The notes beneath the pieces were generated by a model. That model was not told where the DNA came from. It saw only the letters and a program-made list of their open reading frames with translations, and searched no databases. 35,482 bases of DNA from Balneolaceae bacterium. GTDB taxonomy: Bacteria > Bacteroidota > Rhodothermia > Balneolales > Balneolaceae. The position numbers and the translations under genes are program-made. This document shows positions 17,564 to 35,482 of this stretch, piece after piece (the first letter of the stretch is position 1; every line of letters begins with the position of its first letter). The DNA is taken from positions 1 to 35,482 of the forward strand of contig REDA01000036.1 in the NCBI GenBank assembly GCA_007693745.1, given 5' to 3'.

Positions 17564-17594
17564 TTCATGCCCTTATGGGGCAACATCAACATCC
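17564..17594 (-). repeat. TGATG-TGCCCC hairpin repeat (inverted copy)
   Basis: On the minus strand this reads GATGTTGATGTTGCCCC followed by a short loop and GGGCATG. It matches the copies at 18131 and 18181, and it flanks structured repeat copy 1 on the outside. Confidence 0.6.
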
Positions 17595-17620
17595 CATGCC
17601 GAATTTGCATTTCATTCTCT

Positions 17621-17809
17621 GTTCTTTTTGTCTTGAAACAAAAAGAACCAAAAAGTTCAAGGCGGTGAATAGTATGTCGGGCCGTTCCGGGAGCTGCCGC
17701 TGCACCCATTTAAGGTCCGTAGCAGGCATCCCTGTCACTACGGACGAGCCGGTAGAAATGGCTGCGGACGCGGCTGCTCCCTTCACTAAAAACACCCGTC
17801 AGACTATTC
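17621..17809 (+). repeat. Structured palindromic repeat unit, copy 1
   Basis: The unit begins with a perfect 11-bp hairpin, GTTCTTTTTGT / ACAAAAAGAAC (17621-17631 and 17638-17648, six-base loop). After 18 bp comes a nested long palindrome: GAATAGTATGTCGGG (17667-17681) against CCCGTCAGACTATTC (17795-17809); GGGAGCTGCCGC (17689-17700) against GCGGCTGCTCCC (17770-17781); CCATTT (17706-17711) against AAATGG (17756-17761); and apical TCCGTAG (17716-17722) against CTACGGA (17738-17744) enclosing CAGG/CCTG. Copy 2 is on the opposite strand at 18356-18543. The 143-bp palindrome aligns without gaps to that copy at about 87% identity by eye. Confidence 0.9.
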
Positions 17810-18130
17810 AAGGCCGGAAGGGATGCTATTTCTACTGGCATCCCCCCTGAATACTCAACACACGTTCCCAAGGGTTTGAGGTAGGCTTGGGTTTCTTGTT
17901 CTTCGTTTGCGGTTTTTAACTACAACGTTTGTATCAAATGTTGTGTTCAACTCTCACGCAGGTATCAAATTATTCTGGACAATATGAACTACAATCATAT
18001 TCAGACCCACACCCCGGCCTTGAATGGTTGGGGGTGTATCAATCATGCCCTTCTTGGCATAGGGATACGAAATAAAAATTTTCAGGATGTTGCACTTTCA
18101 GCGCAAGGGAAATGATAGATCCATCCGGTT

Positions 18131-18157
18131 CCTATTGATGCTGCCCCTTCAGGGCAG
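18131..18157 (+). repeat. CCTATTGATG-TGCCCC hairpin repeat, copy a
   Basis: CCTATTGATG is followed by a hairpin CTGCCC / GGGCAG (18141-18146 and 18152-18157). The next copy starts exactly 50 bp downstream. Confidence 0.65.
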
Positions 18158-18180
18158 AGTGTGTTGGGTACCAATTTAAT

Positions 18181-18206
18181 CCTATTGATGTTGCCCCGTT
18201 GGGGCA
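18181..18206 (+). repeat. CCTATTGATG-TGCCCC hairpin repeat, copy b
   Basis: CCTATTGATG is followed by TGCCCC (18192-18197), a three-base loop and GGGGCA (18201-18206). The 10-bp leader is identical to that of the copy at 18131. Confidence 0.65.
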
Positions 18207-18313
18207 TGGAACCCTCAGGAGATGTCTGAAGTGATACACTTCGCTTCGTGATATAGAAGAGGAACACTACACTTCATGGTATAAAGGAGGTGCTCTCTAC
18301 ATGACCGGCACCA

Positions 18314-18343
18314 CTTAACCTCAACCTCAGTCTTAGCCTCAGT
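18314..18343 (+). repeat. Imperfect CTYARY hexamer array
   Basis: Five consecutive hexamers fit CTYARY (CTTAAC, CTCAAC, CTCAGT, CTTAGC, CTCAGT). A related array starting with the same CTTAACCTCAAC is at 21651-21680, also between genes. Confidence 0.6.
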
Positions 18344-18355
18344 AATCCCGCCCTT

Positions 18356-18543
18356 GAATAGTCTGGCGGGTGGTTTGAGTGGAGGGAGTAGCCGCGTCCG
18401 CAGCCATTTCTACCGGCTCTTCAGCGGTGCTGAGGCTGCCCGCTATGGACCTTAAATGGGTGCAGCGGCTGCTCCCGGAACGACCCGCCATACTATTCAC
18501 AGGCTTGATTTTTTGGTTACTTTTGCATCAAGGCAAAAGTAAC
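18356..18543 (-). repeat. Structured palindromic repeat unit, copy 2 (inverted)
   Basis: Mirror copy of the unit at 17621-17809. On the plus strand the palindrome comes first: GAATAGTCTGGCGGGT (18356-18371) against ACCCGCCATACTATTC (18483-18498), 15 of 16 paired; GGGAGTAGCCGC (18384-18395) against GCGGCTGCTCCC (18465-18476); CCATTT (18404-18409) against AAATGG (18454-18459); apical AGCGG (18423-18427) against CCGCT (18440-18444). The end hairpin follows: GTTACTTTTGC (18516-18526) and GCAAAAGTAAC (18533-18543), perfect over 11 bp. Relative to copy 1 the three base differences in one arm of this hairpin are all matched by changes in the other arm. Confidence 0.9.
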
Positions 18544-18601
18544 AAAGAGAACACAGATCTGGACGTTATTGATGTTTCCCCATGATCGCAGTGCTCTAAA
18601 G

Positions 18602-19372
18602 TCACCCCCCCTCTCCCATTCTTTGAAACAGCTCGTTAGTCTGCCGGTGAAGCAGTTCCGATAATCGTTTCCGGTCGGTATGTTCTACCGGATCACTGTG
18701 AAATGCGATCTCACACTCGATTCGCCTGTTCCGCGACATCAGAATTACGTGCTGCAGAAACGTGTGTCTTGCTCCAAAAAAGCAGACCGAATCCCTGGCC
18801 GGCGGATCTGCAGGTGCCGTTTGATAGCGGATACAGGCTGTAAAGACAGGGATCGATTCCGATGCAGCCGCTTCCAGTAAGGGTGATTTGAAAGGAAGCA
18901 CACTCTCCCCTCCCGATGAGGTTCCCTCAGGAAAGAGTACCACTCCCTGCCGGCTGTTGATCGCACCCTTAAGCTGACTGTTCACCCGCAGCACATCCGC
19001 TTTTCGACTCCTGTCGATAAAAAGAACTCCCATTTTACTGACCATATAACCGAGAAGCGGCCAGTTTCGCACCTCTTTTTTCGCGACAAAGGTACAATCA
19101 AGATGAAGATAGAGAGGCACAATATCCAGATAACTGAGATGATTGCAAACCAACATAAATGGAGGTGAGGGGGGTATTCCAGAGCTTTTTACATGGATAT
19201 TCAAAATACATGATGCGCCGTGCGCCCAGATCCGCATAAACCGGACCTGAAGCCGTTCGGGGGGACGACCCAGCAAACGGTTCAGAAAATCCAGAAAGAG
19301 GAAAATCAGGCTGCCAGTTAAGGAGAAAATAATAAAAATGAAGAGTTTAGTATATCCCGCAGCCCTTCTCAT
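18602..19372 (-). CDS. 1-acylglycerol-3-phosphate-type acyltransferase (PlsC/OlsA-like)
   Basis: A 256-aa membrane-associated acyltransferase of the LPLAT superfamily. It has an N-terminal hydrophobic segment (about 10-32), the catalytic HX4D motif as NHLSYLD (His78, Asp83), and the second block FPEGTSSGG (147-155). It starts 3 bp after the OlsB-like gene on the same strand, so the two are co-transcribed and very probably act in sequence. In OlsB/OlsA or GlsB/GlsA pairs the first enzyme N-acylates an amino acid with a 3-hydroxy fatty acid and the second O-acylates the product. The alternative is ordinary phosphatidic acid synthesis, but the pairing makes aminolipid synthesis more likely. Which amino acid (ornithine, glycine or serine) cannot be read from the sequence. 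Confidence 0.88.
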   Translation of the reverse strand: MRRAAGYTKLFIFIIFSLTGSLIFLFLDFLNRLLGRPPERLQVRFMRIWAHGASCILNIHVKSSGIPPSPPFMLVCNHLSYLDIVPLYLHLDCTFVAKKEVRNWPLLGYMVSKMGVLFIDRSRKADVLRVNSQLKGAINSRQGVVLFPEGTSSGGESVLPFKSPLLEAAASESIPVFTACIRYQTAPADPPARDSVCFFGARHTFLQHVILMSRNRRIECEIAFHSDPVEHTDRKRLSELLHRQTNELFQRMGEGG

Positions 19373-19375
19373 TCG

Positions 19376-20131
19376 TCAACCGAAAAACATTCTGCGTGTA
19401 CGCTCCGTAATGTTTTCAACATCAAAAAGAATAAAAAAATAGGCGATTTTCATAGAATCAACATAGGCAGGTTCACTGCAAATCCTCGTACCAACATCAA
19501 GATAATTTTGGAGCAGCGGTGGGATGTCCATATCCCCGGATACCATGGTTCCGTTTGTCGTATTTAATTTATACTCGTCTCTGACTTCAACATTAAAAGT
19601 CGGATCCATGTATTTATTCAAGCGCAGATAGTGCCAGGTATGAAGGGCTTTTTCAATACCGGAATCCTCAAGAGCCGAATACCCGAATAAATACCGAAGA
19701 TTATAATGATTGAGATATCCGGCAAGTCCTTTCCAAAGAAGATATAAAACCCTGCCGTTTCTGTGGGTGGGATCGATACAAACTCTCCCGACTTCAAATG
19801 ACTTTCTTAGCAAATCGTCAGGCAGCACGTCCAGAACAAAGCGTCTGGAAGATGCAAAACCGTTGCCCTCCATCGCCTGTTCATATCGCTGAAGCCTGTA
19901 GGTTCCGATGATACTTCCGGTCTCTTTTTCGATGACCAACAGATGGTGAGACTGATCATCATACTCATCCCGGTCTTTCTTTCCCTTAAATGAGAATTGC
20001 CGGTTCAATTCCTCTCCAAATACACGGTATCGCAGAGAAAGCGCCTCTTCAACCTGAGATTCATCGGATGCTATCTGAATCCGGTATTTGTGATTTTCAA
20101 TGCCCTTCAGAATGGGTTTTTCAGCCAGCAA
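19376..20131 (-). CDS. OlsB/GlsB-like amino acid N-acyltransferase (GNAT superfamily)
   Basis: A 251-aa soluble acyltransferase resembling OlsB/GlsB, which use 3-hydroxyacyl-ACP to N-acylate an amino acid and make a lyso-aminolipid. Features seen are the LRYRVFGEEL motif near residue 30, YDDQSHHLLVIEKETGSIIGTYRL (part of the acyltransferase core), FEVGRVCIDPTHRNGRVLYLLWKGL as cofactor-binding region, and YLFGYSALED after it. Length is within the usual range for this family. The first in-frame start is TTG at 20131 with only a weak GGA before it, and no early internal ATG exists. It is the first gene of a two-gene unit with the PlsC-like gene. No terminator or clear promoter was identified in the 293 bp upstream, shared with the divergent MFS gene. 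Confidence 0.85.
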   Translation of the reverse strand: MLAEKPILKGIENHKYRIQIASDESQVEEALSLRYRVFGEELNRQFSFKGKKDRDEYDDQSHHLLVIEKETGSIIGTYRLQRYEQAMEGNGFASSRRFVLDVLPDDLLRKSFEVGRVCIDPTHRNGRVLYLLWKGLAGYLNHYNLRYLFGYSALEDSGIEKALHTWHYLRLNKYMDPTFNVEVRDEYKLNTTNGTMVSGDMDIPPLLQNYLDVGTRICSEPAYVDSMKIAYFFILFDVENITERTRRMFFG

Positions 20132-35418: not shown

Positions 35419-35482
35419 CGGGGAGTGGCGCAGCCCGGTAGCGCATTCGCTTTGGGAGCGAAGGGTCGCAGGTTCAAATCCT
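35419..35482 (+). tRNA. tRNA-Pro (anticodon UGG), 3' end cut by window edge
   Basis: The acceptor strand CGGGGAG (35419-35425) is followed by a D-arm with GCGC pairs around AGCCCGGTA, and an anticodon stem TTCGC/GCGAA enclosing the loop TTTGGGA, which gives anticodon TGG. The T-arm begins GCAGG then TTCAAAT, and the window ends after CCT. The 3' acceptor strand is missing. The rest should read as the complement of CGGGGAG if the gene is intact. Confidence 0.93.

Follow-up and report, generated by a model that had tools for sequence, protein, structure and literature searches.

Probable MITE-like mobile repeats of Bacteroidota with a conserved folded core

Two facing units in the window (the whole 35,482-nt stretch of Balneolaceae DNA analysed here) are probably copies of a non-autonomous, MITE-like mobile DNA family of Bacteroidota, the core of which is a conserved folded-DNA structure consisting of an end hairpin, a pairing between the hairpin loop and a downstream linker, and an imperfect hairpin of ~150 nt. 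The two inverted units of the original prediction were confirmed at their claimed place, at 17621–17815 on the plus strand and 18350–18543 on the minus strand; the location was borne out, while the palindromes extend a few bases beyond the ends first given, to 17815 and 18350. The pair and its surroundings comprise the following features.

17566–17589, plus strand: outer flanking module GCCCTTATGGGGCAACATCAA, from a repeat search; the same flank occurs at other copies, such as L010
17621–17648, plus strand: end hairpin of unit 1, a perfect 11-bp stem with the loop CTTGAA at 17632–17637; helix 1 of the covariance model
17649–17661, plus strand: A-rich linker of unit 1, ending in TTCAAG at 17656–17661, complementary to the hairpin loop just upstream; a possible pseudoknot
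17661–17815, plus strand: long imperfect palindrome of unit 1, closed by GGC...GCC, with conserved asymmetric internal loops, as folded
17816–18349, no strand: centre between the units (about 516 bp), pieces of which recur beside other units of the genome
18079–18206, plus strand: three CCTATTGATG-TGCCCC..GGGGCA modules within the centre
18350–18504, minus strand: long imperfect palindrome of unit 2, as folded
18504–18515, minus strand: A-rich linker of unit 2, in which ATCAAG is complementary to the loop CTTGAT
18516–18543, minus strand: end hairpin of unit 2, an 11-bp stem with the loop CTTGAT
18564–18590, beyond unit 2: related module GATGTTTCCCCA, from a repeat search

Both 11-bp end hairpins have perfect stems, with arms GTTCTTTTTGT..ACAAAAAGAAC in unit 1 (17621–17631/17638–17648) and GTTACTTTTGC..GCAAAAGTAAC in unit 2 (minus strand, 18543–18533/18526–18516), and all three differences between the copies are balanced in the partner arm. 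The 143-bp palindromes are identical at 124 positions without gaps, exactly the number counted by eye in the original prediction; the longer arm found in a repeat search of the window spans 177 nt at 85% identity. The folding energy as single-stranded DNA is −49.1 kcal/mol (z −7.4) for unit 1 and −50.4 kcal/mol (z −6.9) for unit 2, and 0 of 200 dinucleotide shuffles folded as well. Since the units fold far better than the shuffles and the counts match exactly, the observation is real and not a product of chance. The only ORF overlapping unit 1 (17575–17850) had no Pfam match.

To follow the units beyond the window, a covariance model was built from ten units of relatives, with none from the window's genome (G000). 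The model found both window units, at 17619–17815 with 76.6 bits and at 18350–18545 on the minus strand with 92.8 bits, among 19 matches in G000. It was positive in 25 of the 28 genomes belonging to the genus, where copy numbers reach 61 in G005 and 44 in G019, in 71 of 128 genomes of the order and in 92 of 394 genomes of an even sample of the phylum, other classes included. In sister species, blastn detected little except the end hairpin, yet the architecture was identical. A search of the GTDB genomes with an exact pattern, in which 29 bases of the hairpin and linker were fixed, gave at least 114 matching stretches; the 80 matches listed were all from Bacteroidota, and their taxa included Flavobacteriaceae, Mucilaginibacter, Parabacteroides, Dysgonomonas, Chryseobacterium, Pontibacter and Balneolaceae. 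The viral contigs and plasmids searched gave no match to the units. Two loci, L218 (G187) and L219 (G420), hold runs of units in the same orientation at 270–460 bp spacing with (ATT)n/(ACT)n tracts, and the run at L219 borders a gene that, judged by its start, resembles one for a sugar-nucleotide (mannose-1-phosphate) guanylyltransferase.

The many dispersed copies anticipated by the original prediction were found in the window's own genome, where DNA comparison gave 26 matching places against the two noted earlier. Aligned, these copies swap stem modules as matched sets, GGGAGC(A/T)GCCGC with GCGGCTGCTCCC or GTTCAGGTGGAACGC with GCGTTCCACCTGAAC. The layout of plus unit, centre and minus unit was seen three times, in C7 (the window), at C13:7550–8612 and at C75:36127–36840, where the second unit is reduced to its hairpin end. 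Other copies are cut by contig ends and are laid out alike, with the hairpin outward and the centre inward. The inverted pair is thereby a recurring arrangement within this genome rather than the family's unit. Searching the centre against G000 gave 19 matches, most of them adjoining known units, and modules like its TGCCCC..GGGGCA fill a 415-bp element (L186) of the relative G005, within inverted-repeat ends of the G005 type.

Several smaller observations were made at these loci. The Rfam Acido-Lenti-1 RNA model scored 37.1 bits (threshold 37) against a GCCCC..GGGGC module at L186:208–251, which resembles the window-centre modules at 18130–18206; Acido-Lenti-1 may be a mobile palindrome in its own right. 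At L007 (G000 C21), the left hairpin half and its flank are tandemly repeated several times ahead of an intact unit, a pattern that slippage at the hairpin might produce. An extra module of ~70 nt (GAAGGAAAAACACAAGTGCCTTYAGGCGCGCAGTC...) lies between linker and stem in L008, L009, L018 and L019 of G000, and the L218 array has comparable insertions. In the window, 18602–20131 holds an acyltransferase adjoining an Acetyltransf_5/FeeM-like N-acyltransferase, which looks like an ornithine-lipid (OlsA/OlsB-type) pair, and a tRNA gene at 35419–35482 is interrupted by the contig end.

We then assessed whether pairing is conserved over sequence, as the original prediction held. MAFFT on whole units misaligned the 3ʹ arm and gave almost no consensus fold; each 5ʹ arm was therefore aligned against the reverse complement of its 3ʹ arm, and the units were then aligned with the model. 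Across 85 distinct sequences, 85.0% of cells were paired, compared to 63.1% after shuffling, and helix 1, the end hairpin, reached 94.6%. Changes on both sides were observed for 56 of 60 pairs, and the covariation score was 0.490, compared to 0.138 for shuffled sequences and 0.06–0.10 for slid partners. Because the 85-sequence alignment was fitted to the model, an all-against-all test was added to which each of 35 genomes contributed a single sequence (17,901 column pairs, in an alignment also made with the model), and 32 of the top 50 covarying column pairs were pairs of the structure. An arm alignment made without the model gave the same pairing by eye. These counts uphold the earlier claim.

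The loop-linker contact covaries as well. Column pair 20–50, which joins the last loop base to the linker, ranked 25th of the 17,901 though absent from the model; it is T-A in 72 sequences, A-T in 7 and C-G in 5, the sole exception being one gap. The rest of the contact is nearly invariant and is broken in four divergent sequences; the pseudoknot is likely to be real. Mismatches in the internal loops are also kept, in 84 of 84 sequences for the outer loop and 82 of 84 for the inner, and an asymmetric loop of 1 against 5 or 6 nt is kept in most sequences. Together, these features suggest that the spread or persistence of the repeats has to do with the folded shape as such.

A structured non-coding RNA, most likely one made from the opposite strand and rendered mobile by riding in transposon ends, would also offer extensive covariation, preserved internal loops and a pairing of loop and linker that resembles a pseudoknot. 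We regard this as the most serious alternative, though an unlikely one. An RNA fold should tolerate G.U and avoid A.C. On the strand as read, G.T was found in 97 and A.C in 115 of 4,548 cells of helices 1–8; paired columns show no enrichment of G.T relative to A.C, so selection on an RNA of this strand, one of the possibilities raised originally, is unsupported. Wobble pairs make up about 2% on each strand when all helices are taken together, compared to 11 G.T and no A.C in 195 pairs of nine tRNAs from the same loci, where the tRNA finder itself disfavours A.C. The complementary strand fares better: in the best-aligned helices (1, 3 and 8), A.C outnumbers G.T by 54 to 10, and across the phylum stem pair 7 of the hairpin is A.C, which reads as G.U on the complement, in 73 of 275 hairpins. 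This mild excess of A.C could reflect a wobble-tolerant complementary strand, and with stem pair 7 it therefore leaves some room for RNA of that strand, or for the same single strand acting as DNA. Against an RNA stand the lack of any family matching the units when Rfam 15 was compared with the window and 15 other loci, and the lack of a consistent orientation to neighbouring genes (left flank, 22 minus and 13 plus; right flank, 16 and 16). Rfam RNAs associated with mobile elements, such as HEARO/omega RNA, are likewise structured, repeated and carried by transposons; the units differ in that Rfam does not match them, wobble pairs are not in excess on the strand as read and no nuclease gene was seen adjoining those examined. 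Given how rare wobble is on either strand, and that the genes alongside show no consistent direction, we read the structure, with moderate confidence, as acting at the DNA level.

A further alternative is a neutral dispersed repeat under no selection on shape, in which template switching at replication keeps the palindromes by correcting one arm against the other; this would yield double changes without wobble intermediates. The close pair L057 and L139 fits such a process, being identical at 300 of 300 positions in the 5ʹ flank and at 163 of 192 in the core, as if the core had been replaced in one step; the contrast suggests replacement by another copy. Arm correction should nevertheless remove mismatches, whereas the internal-loop mismatches and the asymmetric loop are kept; therefore the shape of the core is probably under selection. 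The loop-linker pairing, moreover, covaries though it lies outside the palindrome. We consider this alternative improbable as a full account, though template switching from arm to arm, rather than selection, could account for some of the palindromy.

That the units are a non-autonomous mobile element, as proposed at the outset, is borne out in relatives, where elements of ~338 bp, bounded by terminal inverted repeats of 13 bp and target duplications of 8–10 bp, enclose the ~195-nt core. The complete elements of G005 have the ends GAGGACTTACCCC.../...GGGGTAACTTCTC, 332–340 bp apart, and the core starts 41–42 nt inside GAGGACTTACCCC and stops about 100 nt before GGGGTAACTTCTC. Direct repeats flanking them include GATTCTTCG, TGCCGTGTG and AATTAGACT. 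In a 9-bp frame, the true flanks match at no fewer than 8 of 9 bases in 12 of 26 elements, compared to 0 of 650 for swapped flanks, and most of the other elements among the 26 carry duplications of 8 or 10 bp. One copy is inserted inside another (L131), and a second, related end type (CTGACATTACCCAT) with duplications of ~10 bp occurs in G012, G014 and G019. Complete elements of the G005 type are textbook non-autonomous transposons. The same ends in G005 also enclose other palindromic interiors of 235–729 bp, cores in reverse orientation and a core-deleted copy of 211 bp, which makes the core a modular cargo carried by a system of transposon ends. Such inverted-repeat ends were not recognised next to the units of the window, nor at most copies beyond the genus, and so transposition there is inferred from the relatives.

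The family resembles bacterial MITEs such as pneumococcal BOX/RUP (PMC3049150) and enterobacterial RU-1/RU-2 (PMC2759123) in being short, intergenic, multicopy and non-coding and, within the window's genus, in having terminal inverted repeats together with target duplications. It differs in its ~195-nt covarying core fold found phylum-wide, in having at least two end types and in having no known parent IS. Of the features that define MITEs, the absence of transposase coding capacity and a high copy number (26 places in G000, 61 model matches in G005) hold for the family, and the terminal inverted repeats and target-site duplications were found in relatives only.

No transposase lies in or adjoining the units, in line with the original prediction. 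A parent was sought in G005 among IS256-type genes, DDE_Tnp_1 genes and paired ends, in an assembly that may lack it. An IS256-type transposase fits duplications of 8–9 bp; such genes are present in 5 of the 28 genomes, with none in G005 or G000. No DDE_Tnp_1 gene of G005 is flanked by these ends, and the sole candidate (L353) is a truncated IS beside a truncated copy. Among the roughly 100 sites listed out of 126 in G005, there was no inverted-repeat pair spanning more than 1 kb that could mark a parent with the same ends.

A single-strand HUH transposase (RAYT, TnpA-REP) mobilising REP-like palindromes is a distinctly doubtful source of the units. REP/BIME/REPIN systems with RAYT (GTAG/CGTC families, PMC3733652; TnpA-REP superfamily, PMC6006769) share with the units a patchy distribution of many extragenic palindromes in facing pairs and clusters, and Y1 transposase (RAYT) genes were found in 25 of 28 genomes of the genus. 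However, G000 has none, and the four RAYT loci checked in relatives are not flanked by units. This mechanism is also not expected to give the terminal inverted repeats or target duplications found in relatives. The units, with a branched fold, are several times longer than REPs (~195 nt, compared to 20–65 nt), and instead of the GTAG/CGTC tag the window hairpins have the feet CTCT/GTTC and CTTT/GTTA.

Integron attC sites are recognised by fold more than by sequence, as an imperfect single-strand hairpin. The units share this character, with a conserved fold and free sequence, and the same-orientation runs in two genomes recall a cassette array; that they are attC-like recombination sites used as folded single strands is nonetheless very improbable, since the gaps in those runs mostly lack ORFs and hold (ATT)n tracts and partial copies of the unit, no linked integrase or cassette ORFs were noticed, copies outside the runs are single, dispersed and in both orientations, and elements of the window's genus carry target duplications.

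For the preferred reading, a MITE-like mobile DNA with a folded core, we envisage that a transposase acting in trans would cut at the inverted repeats and make the target duplications. The core may become accessible when it forms a cruciform or a hairpin in a single strand, as could happen behind the replication fork, and may then be bound by the transposition machinery or a host factor, such that the shape would be selected while the letters drift. In the window's genome, the ends may have been lost or replaced, and recombination or conversion between copies would allow the units to persist and spread in facing pairs that share a centre.

As the original prediction supposed, no named family fits: besides the lack of an Rfam match, the literature searched, exact letters included, gives no description, and the repeat family is apparently undescribed. 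Most likely, it belongs to the kind that includes MITEs and REP/BIME repeats, but stands apart in its length, its structure and its phylum-wide spread; within the scope of the search it has no name. More tentatively, it may be a phylum-wide Bacteroidota element that propagates via a conserved folded nucleic acid (single-strand DNA or complementary-strand RNA) with a pseudoknot-like contact, recognised by a putative trans-acting enzyme, with cores swappable between transposon ends. If true, this would be a shape-recognised mobility system without known counterpart.

Bacteroidota are a dominant phylum of guts and seas, and one covariance model recognises a common class of their intergenic DNA, in about a quarter of sampled genomes. 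Two matters that are commonly confounded come apart here: covariation proves a fold, but the missing G.U excess means that the fold need not be RNA, which is a warning for covariation-based RNA discovery. The family also opens to testing how palindromes keep their shape across deep evolutionary time, and which enzyme is responsible for moving them.
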